Assembly: GCA_903881425.1 (NCBI GenBank)
Contig: CAIRTF010000023.1
Span: forward strand, 1 to 40,080
Source: an uncultured Chitinophagaceae bacterium
Lineage (GTDB): Bacteria; Bacteroidota; Bacteroidia; Chitinophagales; Chitinophagaceae
DNA: 40,080 nucleotides
Direction of reading: 5' to 3'
Shown: positions 3,987-37,399 of the stretch, one piece after another
Layout of the letters: the number at the start of each line of letters is the position of its first letter
How positions within the stretch are numbered: position 1 is the first letter of the stretch
Made by a program: the position numbers and the translations under genes
Notes under the pieces: generated by a model
Told to the model about the DNA's origin: nothing
What the model saw: the letters and a program-made list of their open reading frames with translations, nothing else
The model's database searches: none

Positions 3987-6731
3987 TTATTCCGGCTCAA
4001 AACCTAACATAAATGTAAAGCGTGACATGTCTTTTAATGAAGCACCAGGCGTATATCTATCCAATCCTATACCATAATCAAATCCTAACAAACCGAACAT
4101 AGGTAAAAAGAAACGCATACCCACACCCACTGAACGACGCAAACGGAAAGGATTATATTCTTTAATATTATACCAACCATTGGCAGCTTCGTAAAAAGCT
4201 AATCCATAAATAGTGCTGCTTGGATTTAAACTTAGCGGATATCTTAATTCCAACACATATTTATTGAACATAGTAAAATATTGTGTTGCACCTGATTGAT
4301 CAGGATTTACTTTAGGATCGGATGTTTGATACACCGGATAACCTCTTTGTGCAATAATATCGTAACCAATTAATGCATATTGATTATTCAACCCGGCATC
4401 ACCCAATTGAAAACGTTCAAATGGTGATATTTGCAATTGAGAATTATATCTTCCTAAGAAACCAAATTTGGCTGCTGCTTTCAATACCAATTGCTTTCTT
4501 TCTTCGCCTGTTGGTTTTGTTAATCCAACATACCATTCTGCATTGAAGCGCCATTTGTGATATTCCACCCATTTATATGGATTGCTTTGCTCAACGATCG
4601 ATTTATCAATCAAAGAGAAAGGTGGTGTGAATTGTAAACTTGCAGCAAATGTTGAACCGGTTCTTGGAAATGTTGGAAAGTCAACTGTTGATCTTTGTAT
4701 TCCAACTTTAAAATTAAAATTGTGAGAGAACCCGTTATTGAATCCCGGTAAGGTAACCGGACTGATATAATAATTTACCAAATGATATTGTGTAAAGTTC
4801 ACACCCATTGAAACAGAGAAATAATCATCCGGCCATTTAACTTGTTTTGACAAACTAACACCACCACCGGTTGTCATTAAATAAGAGTTATTAGCAGCAG
4901 AACTTGTGTATGTTCCTGTTCTTGGATCATATGCATTTGCATACTTGGTATTATAAATAGAGAATGATAAAGCGTTTCTATGTTTACCGCCTAACCATGG
5001 CTCTGTGAAAGAGAAATTATAAGAACGAAATGCACGTCCGCTACTTTGTACACGCAAACTTAACTTTTGTCCGTCACCTGTTGGTAAAGGATCCCATCCT
5101 GCTTTATGAAAAATATTTTTGGTAGAAAAATTATTGAATGTAATACCCAATGTTCCGGTTAAACCAATCGCGCCACCATAACCGGCACTTAGCTCTAATT
5201 GATCACTTGATTTTTCTTCAACTTTATAATTGATATCTACTGTTCCATCTTCAGGGTTGGGTATTGGTTGAATGTCAATTTTCTCCTGATTGAAATAATT
5301 TAATTGAGCAATTTCACGCTGAGAACGAACCAATGCTTGTCTGCTGAATTTATCACCCGGAATGGTTCTGATCTCACGTCGAATTACATATTCTTTCGTT
5401 TTTTCATTGCCATAAATTCTAATGTTCTTAATGGTAGCCTGCGGACCTTCCACCATTCTGATCTCGTAATCAATTGTATCATTATATACAGCCGTTTCAA
5501 TAGGATCTGTTCTAAAGAAAAGATAACCATCATCCATATACAATCCACTGATATCGCCGCCTTCAGGCGAACCGCCTTTCCCCAATTTTTTATTCAATAA
5601 CTCCAGGTTATAAATATCTCCTTTATGAATTCCTAAAATAACCGATAATATAGAATCGGTATATTTTGTGTTACCGCGCCATGTAATATTTCCAAAATAA
5701 TATTGATGACCTTCTTTAAATCTGATATCAATATTCAATGCTTTCTTTCCGTTCAACATAACGGGATATACTGCATTCGTATCGATGATGGCATCTCTAT
5801 ATCCCAATGAATTATAGTAGCTGATTAATTTATCCTTGTCTTCTTCATATTTTTTTTCATTGTATTTAGAAGAAGTGAAGAATTTGATACGAGCATACGG
5901 ATCTAATACTTTTTTTGTTTTGCTTGGATATAAATATCCTTTGTCTTTAAGATATTGATCGAATGTATATCTTTTGGGATTGATGAATCCGCCTTTATCG
6001 AAAGTTGGATATAGTGTTAATCTTGATTGCTCTTTGGTTCCCTTCATTTGTTTTTTCAACTGACCATCTTCAACCGTATTACCTTCAAAATTGATATTAT
6101 TGATATGAACTTTTGTTCCTTTATTAACTGTATAAGTTAATGTTAAATAGTTGGAACCGGTGTCTTTTTTTGCATCAATAGCCACTTCTACATTTTGAAA
6201 GCCTTTATCAAAATAAAATTTTCTGATAACATCAACAGATGTTCTGCGCATATTTTCTGTAACTACTCTTCCTTTTACCAATCCTGTTCTGCCAATAAAC
6301 TCCTCAGCTTCTCCTTTCTTTACTCCTTTAAAAAAATAATTTTGTAAACGAGGTCGTTCCTGAACTTCTAATTCCAAATAAATATTTTTCCCTTCTAATT
6401 TGGTAATGAAGATCTTGGCATCGCTGAAATAATTTTGACCCATTAATTTAACAATGGCTTTCGAAAAATTATCGCCGCCGGGAATTCGAATCTCATCGCC
6501 AACACTGATACCTGAAATAGAGATTAACAGATTTTCATCAAAATTTCTGTTGCCGGTTACTTTGATAGCCGCCACCTTATAATTTTTAGGTGTTTTTTGA
6601 TTGAAGATATTAATCAAGTCAGCTTCAATAGAAGTAATGGTAGTGTCTGATTTTTCCTGCGTGTACGCATACGAACCAATAAAACTTGAAACTAATGCCA
6701 GCACTAAAAATTTGTAGAACTTCTTCTGCAT
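3987..6731 (-). CDS. bamA: Outer membrane protein assembly factor BamA
   Basis: 914 aa, the large Bacteroidota form. It has a signal peptide (1-25) and a series of POTRA domains from about residue 50 to 505. The first POTRA begins YKVAAIKVTGNRNFDENLL and the last begins ATIKNIRIYGNEKTKEY. The Omp85 barrel runs from about residue 505 (SDQLELSAGYGG) to the C-terminus. BamA is the central subunit that folds and inserts beta-barrel proteins into the outer membrane. Two OmpH chaperone genes follow at once. The upstream gap of 141 bases holds a possible promoter. Confidence 0.95.
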   Translation of the reverse strand: MQKKFYKFLVLALVSSFIGSYAYTQEKSDTTITSIEADLINIFNQKTPKNYKVAAIKVTGNRNFDENLLISISGISVGDEIRIPGGDNFSKAIVKLMGQNYFSDAKIFITKLEGKNIYLELEVQERPRLQNYFFKGVKKGEAEEFIGRTGLVKGRVVTENMRRTSVDVIRKFYFDKGFQNVEVAIDAKKDTGSNYLTLTYTVNKGTKVHINNINFEGNTVEDGQLKKQMKGTKEQSRLTLYPTFDKGGFINPKRYTFDQYLKDKGYLYPSKTKKVLDPYARIKFFTSSKYNEKKYEEDKDKLISYYNSLGYRDAIIDTNAVYPVMLNGKKALNIDIRFKEGHQYYFGNITWRGNTKYTDSILSVILGIHKGDIYNLELLNKKLGKGGSPEGGDISGLYMDDGYLFFRTDPIETAVYNDTIDYEIRMVEGPQATIKNIRIYGNEKTKEYVIRREIRTIPGDKFSRQALVRSQREIAQLNYFNQEKIDIQPIPNPEDGTVDINYKVEEKSSDQLELSAGYGGAIGLTGTLGITFNNFSTKNIFHKAGWDPLPTGDGQKLSLRVQSSGRAFRSYNFSFTEPWLGGKHRNALSFSIYNTKYANAYDPRTGTYTSSAANNSYLMTTGGGVSLSKQVKWPDDYFSVSMGVNFTQYHLVNYYISPVTLPGFNNGFSHNFNFKVGIQRSTVDFPTFPRTGSTFAASLQFTPPFSLIDKSIVEQSNPYKWVEYHKWRFNAEWYVGLTKPTGEERKQLVLKAAAKFGFLGRYNSQLQISPFERFQLGDAGLNNQYALIGYDIIAQRGYPVYQTSDPKVNPDQSGATQYFTMFNKYVLELRYPLSLNPSSTIYGLAFYEAANGWYNIKEYNPFRLRRSVGVGMRFFLPMFGLLGFDYGIGLDRYTPGASLKDMSRFTFMLGFEPE

Positions 6732-6758
6732 CCGGTTGGTATTTGTAAAAATTGAGGC

Positions 6759-6766
6759 CGAAAGTA
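6759..6766 (-). promoter_or_regulatory. Candidate -7 box for bamA
   Basis: The minus strand reads TACTTTCG, one mismatch from TAnnTTTG, in the 141-base gap upstream of bamA. It predicts a start near 6754 and a leader of about 22 nt. A second partial match (TAATCTTTG, one base too long) lies further upstream near the uppS stop. No clear -33 TTTG is seen, so the call is weak. Confidence 0.35.
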
Positions 6767-6872
6767 TGATATTAAGTTCTTTCAGCAGTTAATTTAGATT
6801 TTAAAAGCGGCAAATTAACGGGAATATTTAAAAGTGTTTGTTAAATAAGGCAAAGATTAGCGTAGATTTTGC

Positions 6873-7649
6873 TTATGCAGGTACTGTTTCTGTCTTTATT
6901 TGGCTGCCGGTTTTACCAAATCTCCTTTCTCGGTTCTGAAAATCAACAATTGCTTCATATAAATTCTCTTTTCTGAAATCGGGCCAACGGGTGTTGGTAA
7001 AATACAATTCGGCATAAGCCAATTGATACAAAAGGAAATTACTGATGCGATATTCGCCGCTGGTGCGGATCATTAATTCCGGGTCAGGTAAATTGCTCGT
7101 TGTTAGATATTGTTGTAATGTATTTTGATCAATTTTTTGTGGGTCTATCTTACCTGCTTTTACATCAATGCCAATATTTTTTACGGCATTAACCAATTCC
7201 CATCTGCTGCTGTAACTCAATGCCATCACAAGGTTTAGCCCGGTATTATGACTGGTCATTTCTAATGCTTCCTGTAATTCTGCTGCAGCATATTCCGGTA
7301 ACATTTTCAAGTCACCAATCACATGAAGTTTTATATTATTTTTATTTAAAACGGGAACTTCTTTTCTAATCGTATCCACCAATAAAGCCATCAATCCATC
7401 TACTTCTTGTTGTGGTCTATCCCAATTTTCGGTACTAAAAGCATATAATGTTAGATAACCGATGCCCAATTCTGCACAACCTTCCACAATATTTCTAACA
7501 CTTTCCACGCCATGAAAGTGACCGTATAATCTTTCCTGACCTTGTTCTTCGGCCCAACGGCCATTTCCATCCATAATGATGGCAATATGCTTTGGTAAGC
7601 GTGATTTATCAATTTGTTCAATGAGTGTCGGCATAACTGTTTCCAACAT
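6873..7649 (-). CDS. uppS: Isoprenyl transferase (undecaprenyl diphosphate synthase)
   Basis: 258 aa. It builds the C55 lipid carrier for peptidoglycan and surface glycans by adding isopentenyl units to farnesyl diphosphate. The catalytic motif IAIIMDGNGRWA has Asp27, followed by the conserved H-x-x-G region (GHFHGVESV). Later blocks YAFSTENWDRP, MALSYSSRWELV and DPELMIRTSGEYRISNFLLYQLAYAELYF are all present. Two ATG codons lie five codons apart. Because a perfect -7 box ends six bases before the first, the second (7634) may be the real start. It lies between bamA and the DUF6089 gene, as in many Bacteroidota. Confidence 0.96.
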   Translation of the reverse strand: MLETVMPTLIEQIDKSRLPKHIAIIMDGNGRWAEEQGQERLYGHFHGVESVRNIVEGCAELGIGYLTLYAFSTENWDRPQQEVDGLMALLVDTIRKEVPVLNKNNIKLHVIGDLKMLPEYAAAELQEALEMTSHNTGLNLVMALSYSSRWELVNAVKNIGIDVKAGKIDPQKIDQNTLQQYLTTSNLPDPELMIRTSGEYRISNFLLYQLAYAELYFTNTRWPDFRKENLYEAIVDFQNRERRFGKTGSQIKTETVPA

Positions 7650-7655
7650 TTACTG

Positions 7656-7663
7656 CAAAAGTA
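7656..7663 (-). promoter_or_regulatory. Candidate -7 box for uppS
   Basis: The minus strand reads TACTTTTG, an exact TAnnTTTG. It ends six bases before the first ATG of uppS, so transcription would start at or next to that ATG. This favours either a near-leaderless message or use of the second ATG at 7634. No strong -33 element is visible. Confidence 0.5.
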
Positions 7664-7710
7664 GTAAAATGCTTTTTGTTAATGACGCTTTTCACTTGTT
7701 TAAGAAAAAT

Positions 7711-8559
7711 CTAATGTGTAGGACAGCGATAGGATTGTAAATTAAAAGAAATACCCACTTGCATAGTAATAAAAGCATCTTTTTGCGGACTGTTGCCTCG
7801 CTGTCTGCCTTTGATACCAATAGGCGATCCGGTTTCATAACTTCTGTCTTGCAACAAATATCCTACTGTTGGATTACCATTGGCATCAGGCGGAAATGCA
7901 TCGGGTGCATAATTTCCGCTTACATCATCCAAATAATCAGTAGTTGTAAAACGAAATACTATTTCACCAAAGAGATTCATTCTTTCGTTCAATGCATATT
8001 TATATCCCACTCCAACCGGAATACTCATGGCAATTAAACTGTAAGGTGAAAGATTGGGATACAATGGGCTTCCTTGTCCTTCTGTACCCAATGGCTGTAA
8101 AAAATATTTTTTCCCGCCCAAATAGGCATATGGATTATATGAAAATATACCCACACCTAAACTAACATAGGGAGTAAAACGATATTCCGGAAAGCCCGGA
8201 TGAAATTCAAAAAAATTAAAATCGCCATTGACACTTAATTCCCAAACATCTGTATTGAAGCTTAAATTTCTTCTTCTTTGTGTTGCGTTATCGCTATATG
8301 CATCAGAATATCCTAGAAATGCATAATTACCGGCAATTTTAAAACCTACATAATTATTGAGTTGCTTTCTATAAAAAATACCTGCGGCAAATTTGGGATG
8401 ACTAATATCGATATTCGGATTAAGGTCTCCGAAATAATGCGATAAACCCATGGATACACCTAATTCTCCCTGATGAACAAATGTTTGAAAAAGCTGGGCT
8501 TTTGATGATTGCATCAAACCAATAAATAAAAAAAATATCAGCAATTTTCTAAACATCAA
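7711..8559 (-). CDS. DUF6089 / PorG-like outer-membrane beta-barrel protein
   Basis: 282 aa. It has a signal peptide (about residues 1-21, ending SSKAQ), then alternating hydrophobic strands typical of an 8-stranded barrel. The family signature near the N-terminus is ELGVSMGLSHYFGDLNPN. The last residues are SFNLQSYRCPTH. The family includes PorG, an outer-membrane part of the type IX secretion system, but I infer only relatedness and not that function. The placement between nadK and uppS, upstream of bamA, is conserved in Bacteroidota and fits an envelope role. The start could be either of two consecutive ATG codons. Confidence 0.85.
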   Translation of the reverse strand: MMFRKLLIFFLFIGLMQSSKAQLFQTFVHQGELGVSMGLSHYFGDLNPNIDISHPKFAAGIFYRKQLNNYVGFKIAGNYAFLGYSDAYSDNATQRRRNLSFNTDVWELSVNGDFNFFEFHPGFPEYRFTPYVSLGVGIFSYNPYAYLGGKKYFLQPLGTEGQGSPLYPNLSPYSLIAMSIPVGVGYKYALNERMNLFGEIVFRFTTTDYLDDVSGNYAPDAFPPDANGNPTVGYLLQDRSYETGSPIGIKGRQRGNSPQKDAFITMQVGISFNLQSYRCPTH

Positions 8560-8611
8560 ACGAACTTTATATTTTAAAAATACAAATGAAATATTTACTT
8601 TTTTGTTAAAG

Positions 8612-9490
8612 CTAATTTCTCTTATCTAACCCCCATGTTAACTTGGTTCGAAGGGTTGATAAGAAACTGTTTTCATTTAAACGAATTAAACTGGCACAAA
8701 ATTTTTCTTTCTTTACTGCTAACTGAACACTTTTATCAACAATCTCTCGTCTTGCATCCAATGCACAAATAAATTGTTCACTTCTGCCTTCTATTTCAAA
8801 TGAAATCACATTGTTATCAGAAACTACGATGGAACGAACATTTAAGTTATGCGGTGCAACGGGTGTTATTACAAAGCTGGAAGATTCCGGGAAAATAATC
8901 GGTCCATTACAACTCATATTATATCCTGTAGAGCCGGTTGGTGTTGATACGATTAATCCATCAGCCCAGTAAGTATTTAAAAATTCACCGTTTAAATAAG
9001 TATGGATTTTTATCATCGGTGCCGTATCTCTTTTATGAATGGCAAATTCATTTAATCCAAATGGAACGTCACCAAATAAAGATTGATTAGAATCAACATG
9101 TATCAAACTTCTCTTGTCTACCAGATAGGTTCTATTAACAAGCGCATCTACTGCACTGCTTAGCTCATCCGGGCTGATACTTGCTAAAAATCCAAGTCGG
9201 CCGAAATTAATTCCAAGGATAGGAATGTTCTTATCTCTTACCAAAGTAACTGCATCCAGAATAGTTCCATCGCCGCCTACACTTATCAAACATTCCACTT
9301 CATTATCCAAATCATCCGGCACTTGAAAAGGTGTGATATGCTCTAACATGGATGCAGGCAAAGGATAGATACCCAACAGAGGTCTATACACTAATATCTT
9401 CACTTCATATTTTACCAATTCTTCCAACAATATTTGTAAAGAATTGCCTTGTTCAATATCTAAGCCTCTGCTATATACTGCTACTTTCAT
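8612..9490 (-). CDS. nadK: NAD kinase
   Basis: 292 aa. It phosphorylates NAD to NADP in the cytoplasm. The ATP/NAD-binding motif GGDGT is at residues 72-76 with catalytic Asp74. It is followed by NFGRLGFLA (95-103) and the nucleotide-binding block STPTGSTGYNMSCNGPI. The N-terminal Rossmann-like part is typical. It stands 52 bases upstream of the DUF6089 gene in the same orientation, so the two are probably co-transcribed. Confidence 0.96.
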   Translation of the reverse strand: MKVAVYSRGLDIEQGNSLQILLEELVKYEVKILVYRPLLGIYPLPASMLEHITPFQVPDDLDNEVECLISVGGDGTILDAVTLVRDKNIPILGINFGRLGFLASISPDELSSAVDALVNRTYLVDKRSLIHVDSNQSLFGDVPFGLNEFAIHKRDTAPMIKIHTYLNGEFLNTYWADGLIVSTPTGSTGYNMSCNGPIIFPESSSFVITPVAPHNLNVRSIVVSDNNVISFEIEGRSEQFICALDARREIVDKSVQLAVKKEKFCASLIRLNENSFLSTLRTKLTWGLDKRN

Positions 9491-9557
9491 TTATCAAAAT
9501 TATTTCAACAAAATATTTATGATACTTATTGCAATTTTTTTTTACAAAAAAATCTCA

Positions 9558-10976
9558 TCAATTGGCATGTAAATATATTCCATTATTGCCGAGTTGATTA
9601 AAACTATATTCCAATCGAAATACAAAATCATAAATAGAAACAATATCCAATCCAAAGCCCCATGTTCGCATCAATGTATTATTGAGCAAATTATTATTCA
9701 CGTATGGATTGTAGGCATATCCAAGATCTCCATAAATTTTTGCATAAAATCGAAAAGGGATTCGATCATGTGTGGTACTTTTAAATGGATTTTTTACAAT
9801 GAAATGAAGAAATTGATGCGCATAAGTAAACTTGCCCAATGCACCGGCCATCCCATCTACCACATAATATTCTAAGCCGCGTAATTGCATGAAACCATAG
9901 CCAAATAAAGCCTGACTAAAAAAATAAGGATTATAAGGAAATTTAATATTAGCGGCACCTTCAAATCGTAAGAAAGATTTTTCTGAAAGCGGCACAGCAT
10001 AAATACCTCGCAAACCAATTTGCCATAAATCGCTGATAGAATTTAATCCACGTTTATAGATACTTGCTTGTCCAATAAATCCTTTAGATGGATATGCATA
10101 ATAATCTGCATTATAATATTGCAACGTATAAGAAAAATCAGGATATCTGATTGACTTAAGTAATGAAGGAAAATAGTTTTGATTTAATTTCAACACGGTA
10201 TCGCCAATCCATTCATCATTGAATGAAAAACGAACATAATGTCTGAATCGTTGATTGGGCCTATACGAATAAGTAATATCAAAACGCGTAAATACTCTGG
10301 TAAAATCATTATCTGATTTTACAAATTCTTGTTTATTGGAAAGATCTGTTCCATAATTCATTTCATGTTGTCTTGAATATAAAAAGCCAACACTAAATCC
10401 TTTGGTGAGCGCTTTATTTACAAAAGGCAATTGATATCGTAAAGAAACTTGTTGATCATAACCATTTACCAATAACACATTCAACTTATCATTTTTACCG
10501 CTGAAATTAGAATGCGATAAACGTATTCCGTAATCCACTCTGTCTAAACTCGCTTTTGACTGCACCAACCACTCATTAAAATTTCTATCAGCAACAACAA
10601 AATAAGGCAACGGAATAAAATACCATCTTTCTTTTACATGAACTGTAACGGAAACTGAATTGTTGATCTTATTTGAAATGTATACACTATCATCCACAAA
10701 TAAAGCAGTATTGTAAATGAGTTGACGGGACAATTCTAATTTAGCATTCAGTTCTGAAGATGCAATAACATCTCCTTTTTTGAATGCCATTTCGCGAAGA
10801 ATAATGTACTCTTTTGTTTTTTTATTCCCAATAACATTGATATCACCAATCAAAATATTTTCGGAATGAACTACACTATCCTGTGTGTTTTTTTGAATAA
10901 TTTTTTCATTAGCTCTTTCTTGTGCAGTTACTGTTATGAATAGTAATAAAAGAATACAAGAAAGTAAATACCTCAT
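9558..10976 (-). CDS. BamA/TamA-like Omp85 protein with a single POTRA domain
   Basis: 472 aa. A signal peptide (1-18, ending TAQ) is followed by one POTRA domain at about residues 40-115 (GDINVIGNKKTKEYIILREM) and an Omp85-type barrel to the end. The POTRA start resembles the last POTRA of the BamA encoded nearby (NEKTKEYVIRREI), the domain closest to the barrel. It is a smaller Omp85 member, not the essential BamA. Its substrate is unknown; a role in outer-membrane protein or lipid handling is inference. It lies 67 bases upstream of nadK. Confidence 0.85.
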   Translation of the reverse strand: MRYLLSCILLLLFITVTAQERANEKIIQKNTQDSVVHSENILIGDINVIGNKKTKEYIILREMAFKKGDVIASSELNAKLELSRQLIYNTALFVDDSVYISNKINNSVSVTVHVKERWYFIPLPYFVVADRNFNEWLVQSKASLDRVDYGIRLSHSNFSGKNDKLNVLLVNGYDQQVSLRYQLPFVNKALTKGFSVGFLYSRQHEMNYGTDLSNKQEFVKSDNDFTRVFTRFDITYSYRPNQRFRHYVRFSFNDEWIGDTVLKLNQNYFPSLLKSIRYPDFSYTLQYYNADYYAYPSKGFIGQASIYKRGLNSISDLWQIGLRGIYAVPLSEKSFLRFEGAANIKFPYNPYFFSQALFGYGFMQLRGLEYYVVDGMAGALGKFTYAHQFLHFIVKNPFKSTTHDRIPFRFYAKIYGDLGYAYNPYVNNNLLNNTLMRTWGFGLDIVSIYDFVFRLEYSFNQLGNNGIYLHAN

Positions 10977-31403: not shown

Positions 31404-33836
31404 TTACTTTTTCGCTTTCACTCCATAAATTTTTACATGTAAATCTTTCATTTGAAAGTTGATTGGAATGGAATCTGTCCATATACCTAAATTAAACACC
31501 AATCCTTTTTTATTCTTGTAATCATCCAATGTAAACATGTCTTTTGTTTGAATGGCATTCCATTGCTGCGGAATAAATTCTGTTGTAGAAATATTCGCCA
31601 CTTCACGCATTGCCCAGTATAAATAATCGCTGGTTTTAGGCAATCTATCCACCAATGCCAATCGCATTGAAGGATGGTAATCTATTTCTTTTGCGGGTGA
31701 ATTAACATTCGCAGCTACTTCCACATATAAAAATTTATACTGCTGCGGAATTTTAAAATCGGGCATCAAACTCGTATCGGAAGATCTTGCATAGATATTT
31801 TTAGAGGCAGGATCAATATAATCAAACAGCAATTGTTTATCACCCGGTGCCACAACTTCTTGTGAAGGAAATATTTTATTACTGTCGCATACAAACGTAT
31901 TGATGGTTTTAAAGTTTTCTCTGAGCTTGATAATAAAATTTTTCAAGGAATCATTTTTATATGGCACTTGCAATAGATTGGGTGTGAGTTTGTATAATTG
32001 ATTTCCCGAAACAAAATAATCTTTATAAATATAATCGCTGATGTCTCTGCTCCATTCCATAAAAGCCATAGATTGTTTATTACTGAATGCTACAGTGGTA
32101 TCAATTACATCGCCTAACCAATGCACTTGTTTGGGATGATAAGAAAAATTAAAATTGCGCAATAATAATGTTTCAATTGTTGGTGCAATATTTAAATGCG
32201 AATTGACTGAATAAAACTTCTTCGCTTGTTTTAACATGGGCGAATAAATAATAAATGGTACATGATAATCATCAATGGTGCAGGTGGTAGGGAATGAACC
32301 AATGTGATGATCGCCGGTAATTATAAAAATGGTGTTTTGATAATCTTTGCGTTTTGCATAATCAGCAAAGAATTTTCTGAAGCAATCATCTGCAAACATA
32401 TAAGTCACCAATACTTCTTTGGTTTCATTCAATGTTTTTTTTATATCAGCAGAAACAGTCAATGTCTTTATTTTTTTCTCAAACAATTTTTCATATAATG
32501 GTTTTTGCTCAAACAGGTATGGCATATGAGTTGTAGCCGTATGATAAATATTTAAGTAACGCGGTTTTCTTAATGAATCCATCACTTCAAAACTTCTGCT
32601 AAATAATGCATCATCCGGATAACCCATGCTCCATCCTTCTTTTCCTATGCCCATTTCTTTATACTTGGAAGGATAATGAGACAATACAAAATCTGTTCCT
32701 TGTAAACGAATATATCCACCCATATTATCAAAATCAGGATTGAAACCAATCATGAAATTTGTCCAATAACCATTTTGACGAAGTATTTTAATCAATGATA
32801 AATGATCGGGCATCACATTCATCATAGAAAAACCTCTTGATGCATAAGGCAGAGAACCAGAGATAGAAGGATGTGCCGCAAATGTGCCGGGAGCAGTACT
32901 TAAAAAATTATCCCACACCAAACTTTTTGTAGATAAGGAATCTAAAAAAGGAGTGAAACTGGTAGCGTAAGCATTAGCGCCACTAAAATCTCTCGATAAA
33001 CCTTCTACTACAATCAGTACAATATTCGGTGGAGTTGATTTAAAATTAAAAAAGTTGCCCAACACATCATTGCTGCTGTCTTTATGCAGCAAAGGATATT
33101 CTTTGCTCGTATACTCAAACTGATGTTGTGATTGATAAAAATCGATTTCTGCAGTTAATTCTTCAGCTGTTATTTTATGATTAGTTCTGTTTTTTTCTTT
33201 AAAATACTCGTAACTGTCTTTTATCCAAAAAGTAAATTTATTGCTGGTCAAATAATAAGCTGTTTGTTGTTTGAACCAGGATTGTTCCGGATCGGAAAAT
33301 CTTATCAATACAACAGATAAAACAGAAAGTACCATTGTACCAATTAAAAAATACCCGTGAAAGTTTTTATACAAAAACACTTTAAAATAAGCAATGAAAT
33401 AAATAGCAATATAAACAGCAAAAGGAATGTATAACTTAATTCCGCTTGTCATCATCTGCTTTGAAGTAAGCCAAGATTCGTGGATGCTTCTGGTAAAAAA
33501 TTCATGGTCGAACGGAACATTCCTTTCAGAATAAACCACCAATAATGCCAGATACAAAATAATCAATATCACATTGATGGAATGAAAAACAATTCTGGCA
33601 ATTCTTTGATGAATAAAAAACAAGATTAAAAACAAGAAAAAGCAAACAAAACAATATATAAGCCATGCCCAAACATCGTATAAAAGTCCGCCCAGCTCAA
33701 ATGCAAACGCATGATCCACAAAAGATTTAGAAGCAATAAAAAAGTATTCAAATACCCTGATCAAACAAAAACTAACCAGAAAAGAAATCGTTATTCTAAA
33801 AAATTGCTGCAAAAAAAACCTATTTTGTATAGCCAT
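31404..33836 (-). CDS. LtaS-like membrane sulfatase/phosphoglycerol transferase
   Basis: 810 aa. The N-terminal part has five membrane segments (about 11-35, 50-75, 84-103, 133-155 and 160-179). The C-terminal alkaline-phosphatase-superfamily domain starts PNIVLIVVEGLSRDF with metal ligand Glu278. The nucleophile Thr318 is in LSTAPGTFAAH, with metal/substrate residues in YHTATTHMPY (His437) and ITGDHH (Asp509, His510). Family members move phosphoglycerol or phosphoethanolamine onto surface glycans or lipids. The acceptor here is unknown. An additional C-terminal region (about 640-810) is not recognised. A -7 box lies just upstream. Confidence 0.9.
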   Translation of the reverse strand: MAIQNRFFLQQFFRITISFLVSFCLIRVFEYFFIASKSFVDHAFAFELGGLLYDVWAWLIYCFVCFFLFLILFFIHQRIARIVFHSINVILIILYLALLVVYSERNVPFDHEFFTRSIHESWLTSKQMMTSGIKLYIPFAVYIAIYFIAYFKVFLYKNFHGYFLIGTMVLSVLSVVLIRFSDPEQSWFKQQTAYYLTSNKFTFWIKDSYEYFKEKNRTNHKITAEELTAEIDFYQSQHQFEYTSKEYPLLHKDSSNDVLGNFFNFKSTPPNIVLIVVEGLSRDFSGANAYATSFTPFLDSLSTKSLVWDNFLSTAPGTFAAHPSISGSLPYASRGFSMMNVMPDHLSLIKILRQNGYWTNFMIGFNPDFDNMGGYIRLQGTDFVLSHYPSKYKEMGIGKEGWSMGYPDDALFSRSFEVMDSLRKPRYLNIYHTATTHMPYLFEQKPLYEKLFEKKIKTLTVSADIKKTLNETKEVLVTYMFADDCFRKFFADYAKRKDYQNTIFIITGDHHIGSFPTTCTIDDYHVPFIIYSPMLKQAKKFYSVNSHLNIAPTIETLLLRNFNFSYHPKQVHWLGDVIDTTVAFSNKQSMAFMEWSRDISDYIYKDYFVSGNQLYKLTPNLLQVPYKNDSLKNFIIKLRENFKTINTFVCDSNKIFPSQEVVAPGDKQLLFDYIDPASKNIYARSSDTSLMPDFKIPQQYKFLYVEVAANVNSPAKEIDYHPSMRLALVDRLPKTSDYLYWAMREVANISTTEFIPQQWNAIQTKDMFTLDDYKNKKGLVFNLGIWTDSIPINFQMKDLHVKIYGVKAKK

Positions 33837-33952: not shown

Positions 33953-36900
33953 ATGAGTACAAACCCTTCGCAAATATTTCAAACCAATACAAAATCTCGT
34001 TGGCAACGTTTTAGGTGGCTGGGAAGGTTACTATTATTCTTTATTGTTCTTTCGGCTGTATTATTTAGACTATATCTTTTTGTTTCTGATAAAACACATG
34101 AGGAAATGAATTTGCCTTTGGAAGACAGGGCAATAAAAAAAGTATTGGTCGATAACATTCCTTCTTATCGAGAAAGCAATTTGGGTAAGCAGTATCGCGG
34201 AATGAGAAAATATATTCAAAATCGTTGGGCTACGGGTAAAGGCTGCGGACAAAAAGATAGTGTATTAAACCTCTCTACCTCTGATTATTTCAGTGATAGT
34301 TTAGGAATTCGTGCTGCTTTTTATGTTGCCTGGGATCCTCAATCATTCTTTTCATTAAGAAAAAATATTTCAAAACTAAATCTTGTTTTACCTGAATGGT
34401 TTTTTATTGATCCGACCGCCGACACCATCATTACAAAAATTGATACCAGAGCTTTTGATTTGATTAAAAAATCGGGTATTGAAGTAATGCCTATTTTATC
34501 GAATGCCATTTGGAACACAGGTAAATTCAATGGTGCCGCACTGCATCGCATTTTCAATAACAAACAAAAATCTGAACGCTTCATCAATCAGATACTCGAT
34601 CTTTTAACAAAGTATGATTTTACGGGTATTAATGTTGATTTTGAAGATCTGAAAGAAAAAAAGAATGAAGTGTTGAGCAATTTTCAAAAGAAGTTATATA
34701 ATCGTTTACATGCAGAAGGTTTTTTAGTAACACAAAATGTTTCTCCATTTAACGATGATTATAATTATGAAGAACTAGCTAAGTATAACGATTATCTTTT
34801 TTTGATGGCATATGATGAACATTCTGATGATACAGGCCCTGGGCCCATTGGTAGCCAAAAATGGGTAGAATCATGCGTTGATAAATTGGCACAAAAAGTA
34901 CCGGCTTCAAAAATTGTTTTAAACCTTGCTGCATTTGGCTATGATTGGAATTTAAAAAATAAAAATAACATTACGCTTACCTACCAGCAGGCGCTTACCA
35001 AAGCAAGAGATACGAATGCCAAACTTGATTTTGATAATGACACTTATAATTTAAATTATCGTTACTACGACGATAAGGATGCCATTCATGAAGTTCATTT
35101 TACAGATGCTGCTACCAATTTTAATTCATTGCGTTTTGCTACAGAATATAATTTAGCCGGCACTGCTATTTGGCGTTTGGGAAGTGAAGATCCAAGGCTT
35201 TGGGATTTTTATAATAAACCCATGACCAAAGCTGCGTTGAAGACTTTTGATTTCAATGATTTTAATAGTATCGATCCCATCAGTGATGTTGATTATATTG
35301 GCGAAAACGGCGATGTAAGCGGGGAGATTTTGGAATTGATGGCAACTCCATCTGAAGGGCATATTACTTCAGAGATTGATACATCCGCCATGTTAATCAG
35401 TGAAGAGCTTTTTGATAAATTACCTTCTTCGTACGTCATTAAAAAATGGGGGCATACTTCTGAAAAGAAATTAATACTCACTTATGACGATGGTCCCGAT
35501 CCTGTTTATACAAAAGAAATTCTTGATACACTTGCTTTCTATCATGTACCTGCTTCATTTTTTGTTGTGGGTATTCAGGCAGAAAATAATATTCCTTTAG
35601 TTAAAAGAATTTACAGAGAAGGGCATGAAATAGGCAATCATACATTCACACATCCAAATATTGCAGAAGTTAGCAAAAGCAGAGCTTTATTAGAAATGGA
35701 TTTGACAGAAGTATTGATTGAATGTATTACCGGACACAGCACTATTTTATTTCGAGCACCATTTAATGCAGATAGTGACCCTGAAGCAAAAGAAGAATTG
35801 GTGCCCATCGCATTAAGTAAATCCAGAAATTATATAACTGTTGGTGAAGGCATTGATCCAACAGATTGGGAAAAAGCAGATCATCCAGAATTGAATTCGG
35901 ATACTATCTTAAACAGAGTGATTAGAATTTATAATGACCATGTTGATAATGGTGATAGTCTTTCTATTATTTTATTACATGATGCCGGTGGAGATAGAAG
36001 TGAAACTGTAAAAGCAACAGGAAAAATTATTCGTTACTATAAAAGCAAAGGCTATAAGTTTACTACTATTGCCGATCTGTTACATAAAACTCGTAATGAT
36101 TTAATGCCTGCTGTACCTCGTGGAAGCGGTTACGCATTGTTTCAATTCAACACATTTTTATGGGAAGCCGGTTATTGGTTAGGCGAAACATTTTATACAT
36201 TATTTTTATTGTTTTTAATACTTAGCTGTATTCGCTTATTGGTATTGGGATTCTTTGCTGTTTCACAAAAAAGAAAAGAAAAGAAAAATAAAGATAGTTT
36301 TATAGATGCTGCCAATATTCCATTAGCATCTATCATAGTTCCGGCATTTAATGAAGAAATAAATGCCATCAGTTCCTTAGAAAATTTATTGCTATGCGAT
36401 TATCAAAATTTCGAAATCATTTTTATTGATGATGGAAGTTCTGATAATACTTACGAAAAAGTAAAAAACGCATTCAACAATCATCCCAAGGTAAAAGTAT
36501 TTACCAAGCCCAATGGCGGAAAAGCTTCTGCATTAAATTTTGGTATTGCACAATCGCAAGCAGCATTTGTTGTTTGTATTGATGCGGATACCAAATTATT
36601 ACCCACTGCTGTAAGTTATTTGATGCGAAATTTTAAAAACGAAAAAGTAGGTGCTGTGGCAGGTATTGTAAAAGTGGGCAACGAAGTAAATATTTTAACC
36701 CGTTGGCAAAGTATTGAATATACAACCAGTCAGAATTTCGACCGAAAAGGTTTTGCTTACATCAATTGTATTACTGTTGTACCCGGAGCTATTGGCGCAT
36801 TTAGAAAAGAGGCCTTATTATCAGCAGGCGGATTTACTACGGATACTTTAGCCGAAGATTGTGATATTACCGTTCGCATTTTAAAAGAAGGATACATTGT

Positions 36901-37399
36901 TGCGAATGAACCAAAAGCCATTGCATTAACAGAAGCACCCGAAAGTATTAAACAATTTATGAAACAACGTTTTCGCTGGACATTTGGTGTAATGCAAACA
37001 TTCTGGAAACAAAAAGAGGTGTTATTTAATTCGAAATATAAATCTTTGGGATGGGTTGCTTTTCCTGATATTCTTTTATTCAAATACATTATTCCATTCT
37101 TCTCTCCTTTAGGGGATGTATTAATGATATTTGGTTTGCTAACTGAAAGTCGTTCTAAAATTTTAACGTATTACTTCATCTTCCTCATTGTAGATGCAAT
37201 GGTTTCTATTTTGGCATTTGCCATGGAAAAACAGAAAGCATGGAAATTGATTTGGTTATTGCCTCAAAGATTAATTTACCGTTGGATGATGCTGATTATT
37301 TTGTTCCGTGCGTTAGGGCGTGCTATCAAAGGTGAATTACAGTATTGGGGCGTATTAAAACGCACAGGCAATGTAAAAGATATTACCGCCTCATCATAA
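33953..37399 (+). CDS. GH18-like / NodB deacetylase / GT2 synthase fusion
   Basis: 1148 aa with three enzyme modules. A membrane anchor (23-45) leads to a periplasmic GH18-like domain (about 117-440), with GINVDFEDL and acid Glu231 at the catalytic strand. A NodB polysaccharide deacetylase domain (505-710) has TYDDGPDP (Asp512/Asp513), HTFTHP (His563, His567), RAPFNAD and LLHDAG. A membrane segment (738-770) leads to a cytoplasmic GT2 domain (790-1010) with IDDGSS, DADT (Asp877, Asp879), LAEDCDI (Asp969) and QRFRW (1005-1009), then two to three helices. It likely makes, deacetylates and trims a beta-linked N-acetylglucosamine-like polymer, similar to PgaB plus PgaC in one chain. The polymer is inferred. 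Confidence 0.92.
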   Translation: MSTNPSQIFQTNTKSRWQRFRWLGRLLLFFIVLSAVLFRLYLFVSDKTHEEMNLPLEDRAIKKVLVDNIPSYRESNLGKQYRGMRKYIQNRWATGKGCGQKDSVLNLSTSDYFSDSLGIRAAFYVAWDPQSFFSLRKNISKLNLVLPEWFFIDPTADTIITKIDTRAFDLIKKSGIEVMPILSNAIWNTGKFNGAALHRIFNNKQKSERFINQILDLLTKYDFTGINVDFEDLKEKKNEVLSNFQKKLYNRLHAEGFLVTQNVSPFNDDYNYEELAKYNDYLFLMAYDEHSDDTGPGPIGSQKWVESCVDKLAQKVPASKIVLNLAAFGYDWNLKNKNNITLTYQQALTKARDTNAKLDFDNDTYNLNYRYYDDKDAIHEVHFTDAATNFNSLRFATEYNLAGTAIWRLGSEDPRLWDFYNKPMTKAALKTFDFNDFNSIDPISDVDYIGENGDVSGEILELMATPSEGHITSEIDTSAMLISEELFDKLPSSYVIKKWGHTSEKKLILTYDDGPDPVYTKEILDTLAFYHVPASFFVVGIQAENNIPLVKRIYREGHEIGNHTFTHPNIAEVSKSRALLEMDLTEVLIECITGHSTILFRAPFNADSDPEAKEELVPIALSKSRNYITVGEGIDPTDWEKADHPELNSDTILNRVIRIYNDHVDNGDSLSIILLHDAGGDRSETVKATGKIIRYYKSKGYKFTTIADLLHKTRNDLMPAVPRGSGYALFQFNTFLWEAGYWLGETFYTLFLLFLILSCIRLLVLGFFAVSQKRKEKKNKDSFIDAANIPLASIIVPAFNEEINAISSLENLLLCDYQNFEIIFIDDGSSDNTYEKVKNAFNNHPKVKVFTKPNGGKASALNFGIAQSQAAFVVCIDADTKLLPTAVSYLMRNFKNEKVGAVAGIVKVGNEVNILTRWQSIEYTTSQNFDRKGFAYINCITVVPGAIGAFRKEALLSAGGFTTDTLAEDCDITVRILKEGYIVANEPKAIALTEAPESIKQFMKQRFRWTFGVMQTFWKQKEVLFNSKYKSLGWVAFPDILLFKYIIPFFSPLGDVLMIFGLLTESRSKILTYYFIFLIVDAMVSILAFAMEKQKAWKLIWLLPQRLIYRWMMLIILFRALGRAIKGELQYWGVLKRTGNVKDITASS

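Follow-up and report, generated by a model that had tools for sequence, protein, structure and literature searches.

A single-gene GH18–CE4–GT2 membrane protein from an uncultured Chitinophagaceae bacterium, a probable synthase of partly de-N-acetylated poly-GlcNAc

NodC and NodB together make the chito-oligosaccharide backbone of the Nod factor, and the hydrolase of PgaB belongs to family GH153 (PF14883). The nearest characterised relative that we identified for the protein described here is Streptomyces MatB, a CE4–GT2 fusion whose GT2 domain is nearest to PgaC and whose CE4 domain is nearest to PgdA and NodB (PMC5972031). MatB is reported to make PNAG on the evidence of binding by antibody F598 and loss with dispersin B, and the Streptomyces matrix is removed by dispersin B only, not by chitinase or cellulase; the authors see the polymer as the target of the CE4 domain (PMC5972031). 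Fusions of CE4 and GT2 are already known (MatB; PMC7112194). A literature search for GH18, deacetylase and glycosyltransferase, in which subscription journals were thinly covered, found no study of a trimodular protein, and no activity, product or mutant was found in the literature for any GH18–CE4–GT2 protein.

The window, by which we mean the whole stretch of 40,080 nucleotides analysed, carries such a three-domain fusion at 33953–37399 on the forward strand. The open reading frame starts with ATG, is unbroken and encodes 1148 aa in the order TM1, GH18, CE4 (NodB), TM2, processive GT2 and three further transmembrane segments. The protein has four Pfam matches, all above the gathering score: GH18 (PF00704, aa 194–410, E=3.4e-22, 80 bits against a cut-off of 29.6), Polysacc_deac_1 (PF01522, aa 501–606, E=3.9e-27), Glycos_transf_2 (PF00535, aa 793–952, E=8.2e-29) and Glyco_tranf_2_3 (PF13641, E=1.2e-24). 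Together with the motifs, these matches bear out the earlier note, which had recognised a GH18-like domain, a NodB deacetylase and a processive GT2 in this one gene.

TM1, a signal anchor with a positively charged N-terminal flank (aa 26–44, 34028–34084, hydropathy 2.64), is followed by the GH18 TIM-barrel hydrolase domain (aa 117–425, 34301–35227), placed by PF00704 and structure matches. A beta-rich linker with five predicted strands, conserved in the alignment (aa 440–499, 35270–35449), leads to the CE4/NodB polysaccharide deacetylase domain (aa 501–712, 35453–36088), which is supported by PF01522, PDB relatives and motifs. Beyond TM2 (aa 750–768, 36200–36256, hydropathy 2.72, six K/R on the C flank) come the processive GT2 catalytic domain (aa 790–1020, 36320–37012), assigned by PF00535/PF13641 and its hyaluronan synthase fold, and three C-terminal transmembrane helices (aa 1031–1126, 37043–37330), predicted at 1031–1062, 1067–1091 and 1096–1126. 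Hydropathy places transmembrane segments at aa 26–44, at aa 750–768 and three times more beyond aa 1031, and the K/R flanks match an N-in orientation in which GH18 and CE4 face outward and GT2 lies in the cytoplasm, the topology that had been proposed from the membrane segments.

The short cytoplasmic N-terminus carries a motif of its own, QIFQT..RW.RF.W (aa 7–22, 33971–34018), seen in the alignment and lying in a region of low pLDDT. Its residues Q7, F9, R16, W17 and W22 are invariant across 27 Bacteroidia homologues but not retained in Alphaproteobacteria, and the RW.RFKW form is likewise kept in Bacteroidia and not in Alphaproteobacteria. In the window protein, the stretch RWQRFRW (aa 16–22, 33998–34018) contains the same QRFRW string as the GT2 motif.

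An AlphaFold2 model of the window protein, built with 27 Bacteroidia homologues as input, reached a mean pLDDT of 80.5 and a pTM of 0.51, at which the individual domains are reliable and their mutual placement is unsure. The modelled GH18 domain matches chitinase 5jh8 with Z 33.9 and SleL with Z about 33.7. The modelled residues 746–1147 match hyaluronan synthases with Z 33.1 (rmsd 3.1 over 382 residues, 17% identity). HAS is a solved representative of a fold common to processive GT2s, and membership in the hyaluronan synthases on the ground of the fold was rejected for that reason. In Escherichia coli PgaC, a loop of about 5 residues connects TM1 to TM2, and the GT2 domain and three more transmembrane segments follow; the fusion has the same order, but about 700 residues separate TM1 from TM2, TM1 being equated with that of PgaC by position alone, with no demonstrable sequence homology between the two. 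The simplest description is that of a PgaC-like synthase with two processing enzymes inside the exit-side (periplasmic) TM1–TM2 loop.

Catalytic motifs were compared across 33 aligned full-length homologues from three phyla, among which the principal residues of the CE4 and GT2 motifs vary little or not at all. All five CE4 motifs are present in the window protein (TYDDGP, HTFTH, RAPFNAD, DPTDW and LLHD), and D512, D513, H563, H567, R601, D635 and H676 are invariant across the 27 Bacteroidia. The GT2 motifs that had been named at first reading, QRFRW and three aspartates, are found as DDG, DAD, ED and QRFRW (aa 1005–1009), together with the transmembrane bundle. The GH18 motif reads G-I-N-V-D-F-E, with D229, E231 and the MxYD tyrosine Y287 present; relative to DxxDxDxE, the first D is replaced by T224 and the second by N227, N occupying the latter position in 29 of the 33 homologues. 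Chitinase 5jh8 has the same active-site string, GINVDFE. A lack of catalytic residues in GH18 or NodB, which the earlier note had named as a refutation, is thus not what the window protein shows. The GH18 acid E231 (34643–34645) is kept in 30/33 homologues, the exceptions being one Bacteroidia row, which has D, and the two Rhodobacterales rows, which have S. Two related fusion homologues, L073 and L075, have MAID instead of MAYD in GH18, and L075 also has D for the acid E; their GH18 is perhaps a weakened hydrolase, to judge from these substitutions.

The likeness to PgaB suggested by the earlier note is one of function only, the hydrolase being GH18 and not GH153, and the CE4 domain being PgdA/NodB-like. 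PF14883 (GH153) has no match in the window protein or elsewhere in the genome. The CE4 domain matches the PdaB, PgdA and NodB models, its eight model matches with E of 0.001 or less include neither PgaB nor IcaB, and a BLAST comparison with PgaB of E. coli aligned one short CE4 stretch only (E=6e-4). Its relatives in the PDB are PgdA, PdaC and chitin deacetylases. The best curated match of the GT2 domain is PgaC/IcaA (TIGR03937, E=5.6e-58), at 196.8 bits and thus short of the curated cut-off of 422.3; NodC lies well behind at 5e-24 and 85 bits. Identity to E. coli PgaC is 32% over 241 aa. As had been noted, no PgaA porin adjoins the fusion, and none exceeds the cut-off genome-wide (best match 28 bits against 366.65). 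No outer-membrane exporter for the product was found; the polymer could leave through some unrelated protein of the outer membrane or may be retained in the envelope. Elsewhere in the window, at 3987–10976 on the reverse strand, two POTRA-domain proteins lie near an undecaprenyl diphosphate synthase in what seems to be an unremarkable cluster of envelope genes.

In a GT2 tree in which MatB itself was represented by plasmid proteins of Kocuria and Streptomyces, the fused GT2s group with actinobacterial CE4–GT2 proteins (90/90) and a Deinococcus GT2. A single clade of all fusions and the actinobacterial CE4–GT2 proteins has a p-AU of 0.216 and is neither shown nor rejected. PgaC and NodC, both on long branches that call for caution, do not join the fusion group, and reading the product from the tree was rejected on this ground.

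Beyond the observed domains, fold, topology signals, motif conservation and distribution, we infer the sugar, the order of action and the destination of the product. The sugar specificity of a GT2 is not readable from its sequence. The fusion is probably a self-contained inner-membrane synthase of partly de-N-acetylated poly-GlcNAc; as to its linkage, the GT2 domain and MatB point to beta-1,6 and the GH18 domain to beta-1,4. The cytosolic GT2 would polymerise UDP-GlcNAc and, as its HAS/PgaC-type fold suggests, thread the chain through its own transmembrane bundle; in the TM1–TM2 loop at the outer face, CE4 would deacetylate the chain as it emerges. Cutting by the GH18 domain would follow at units that are still acetylated, since enzymes of this family rely for catalysis on the acetamido group of the sugar at the –1 position. 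Deacetylation would therefore set the cut sites and the length of the pieces, and the product would be positively charged. A single chain that makes, deacetylates and cuts a polymer would fit the anatomy of the protein.

Two alternatives split the linkage question within this best explanation, and the choice between beta-1,6 and beta-1,4 is about even. The polymer may be chitin- or chitosan-like, with beta-1,4 bonds, GH18 and CE4 trimming it to chitosan or chito-oligosaccharides in a way comparable to the making of the Nod factor backbone by NodC and NodB, a reading to which we give somewhat less than an even chance. Two of the three domains resemble enzymes of beta-1,4-linked GlcNAc, GH18 being chitinase- and SleL-like and CE4 being close to PdaB, PgdA and NodB, but the GT2 domain is far closer to PgaC than to NodC (197 against 85 bits), and MatB, with the same CE4 signature, is reported to make PNAG (PMC5972031). 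Beta-1,6-linked PNAG like that reported for MatB is a similarly serious candidate, again just short of even; the specificity of GH18 would have shifted, the domain replacing the GH153 of PgaB. The PgaC/IcaA match, the identity to E. coli PgaC and the MatB precedent (PMC5972031) argue for such a product, whereas the position of the GT2 domain away from PgaC in the tree and the failure to find PgaA in the genome argue against it. It also conflicts with the beta-1,4 activity of GH18: enzymes of this family are known to act on beta-1,4 bonds, and we know of none that acts on beta-1,6-GlcNAc.

A quite unlikely alternative is that GH18 and CE4 work on peptidoglycan beside the synthase, for example by opening a path through the wall or by modifying its GlcNAc. 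The nearest structural kin of GH18 do include the SleL cortex-lytic enzymes, and CE4 is nearest to PgdA, PdaB and PdaC; against this stand their position, both being permanently joined to a glycan synthase and lodged in its exit-side loop, and the assignment of CE4 to the polymer by the authors of the MatB study (PMC5972031). That the synthase uses another sugar, as for a mixed or hyaluronan-like polymer, is very unlikely: the fold match to hyaluronan synthases favours it, but identity to them is only 17%, both partner domains imply GlcNAc, and hyaluronan finds no support beyond the shared HAS-type fold.

That similar fusions occur in other bacteria had been suggested at the outset, and their spread proved far wider than supposed. 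The full-length fusion is present in 22/395 sampled Bacteroidota genomes, that of the window included, all in the same class and in five families; named carriers in Bacteroidia include Niastella caeni and Prevotella nigrescens. Its distribution is patchy, as only 9/39 nearest-kin genomes carry it. Beyond Bacteroidota, the fusion was found in Deinococcus, Sphingobium, Novosphingobium, Sphingomonas and on Sulfitobacter plasmids, with about 30–35% identity to the window protein across 88–93% of its length; these other phyla were searched unevenly, and no carrier frequency follows for them. The architecture is widespread, and the window protein is a typical example of it; most such proteins are annotated simply as ‘glycosyltransferase’. 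Contig CALPWK020000066.1 is catalogued as Comamonas sp., but searching the phylum around its genome brought up Bacteroidota genomes, and it is likely a mislabelled MAG.

Plasmids of Streptomyces and Kocuria encode CE4–GT2 proteins without a recognised GH18 domain; in Kocuria, the gene that follows is annotated as a chitinase and has a weak GH18 match below the cut-off. In the Rhodobacterales fusions, carried by Sulfitobacter and Limimaricola plasmids, the GH18 catalytic E is lost in 5/5, and a DUF3131 gene lies downstream in all five. Cutting would accordingly not be needed everywhere, and the hydrolase role of GH18 may be dispensable or replaced in Rhodobacterales.

No conserved operon was found around the fusion in Bacteroidia, where the flanks change from genus to genus. 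In the window, the fusion is divergent from a gene for an 810-aa sulfatase-domain protein with hydrophobic N-terminal segments (31404–33836, reverse strand), 117 bp away, and is followed by a transketolase-domain gene; neither neighbour points to glycan synthesis, and the former is common only to three close relatives. In all four sphingomonad loci examined, genes for AcvB/VirJ, of the lysyl-phosphatidylglycerol hydrolase family, and for MprF, the lysyl-phosphatidylglycerol synthase, are found no more than a few kb from the fusion, in varying order. MprF is also divergent from the fusion in two Bacteroidia of one genus. Across Bacteroidota, the co-occurrence is weak: eight of the 22 fusion holders have MprF, and it is adjacent only in these two. 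MprF was sought in the window's genome and none was found; the link is thus not essential. Where it exists, proximity to MprF hints at a contribution to positive charge at the cell surface. Work from 2015 described a deacetylase and a glycosyltransferase of archaeal origin adjoining a gene of the MprF flippase-domain family (PMC5898192).

A broader proposal, which we consider unlikely, is that GH18–CE4–GT2 proteins form a class of one-gene synthases, with trimming enzymes in the exit-side loop, that keep a cationic glucosamine polymer in the diderm envelope with no porin of the PgaA type and that, in some lineages, join the lysyl-lipid of MprF in providing positive charge against cationic peptides. 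If one chain does make, deacetylate and cut its polymer, the whole PNAG-type job could move as a single gene, which fits the patchy spread of the fusion and its lack of fixed neighbours. For Chitinophagaceae and other Bacteroidia, among them Prevotella, the fusion would make a polymer of the envelope or biofilm accessible through one gene. It also offers a way to test whether a GH18 enzyme can take part in exporting a polymer, and whether the connection with MprF holds.

Among known systems, PgaB and PgaC likewise cover synthesis, deacetylation and hydrolysis within one pathway, and PgaC has the same order of transmembrane segments; they are separate proteins with a GH153 hydrolase, whereas the fusion has GH18, no match to the PgaB models and no PgaA that we could find. 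NodC and NodB also pair a GT2 synthase with a CE4 deacetylase, but as separate proteins without a hydrolase, and the NodC GT2 is more distant (27% identity). The group of SleL, YaaH, YdhD and 5jh8 shares the GH18 fold, and 5jh8 the GINVDFE string, in stand-alone, solved chains without an attached synthase. The glycosyltransferase–deacetylase fusions of divergent pga clades resemble the window protein in joining these two activities with no PgaA or PgaD detected, but the main text describing them mentions neither GH18 nor Bacteroidetes (PMC7112194). Streptomyces MatB differs in that it has no GH18, needs MatA and belongs to a monoderm host with no outer membrane to cross; it shares with the fusion an outer CE4 domain joined through a transmembrane helix to a cytosolic GT2, and the same mixed signature.
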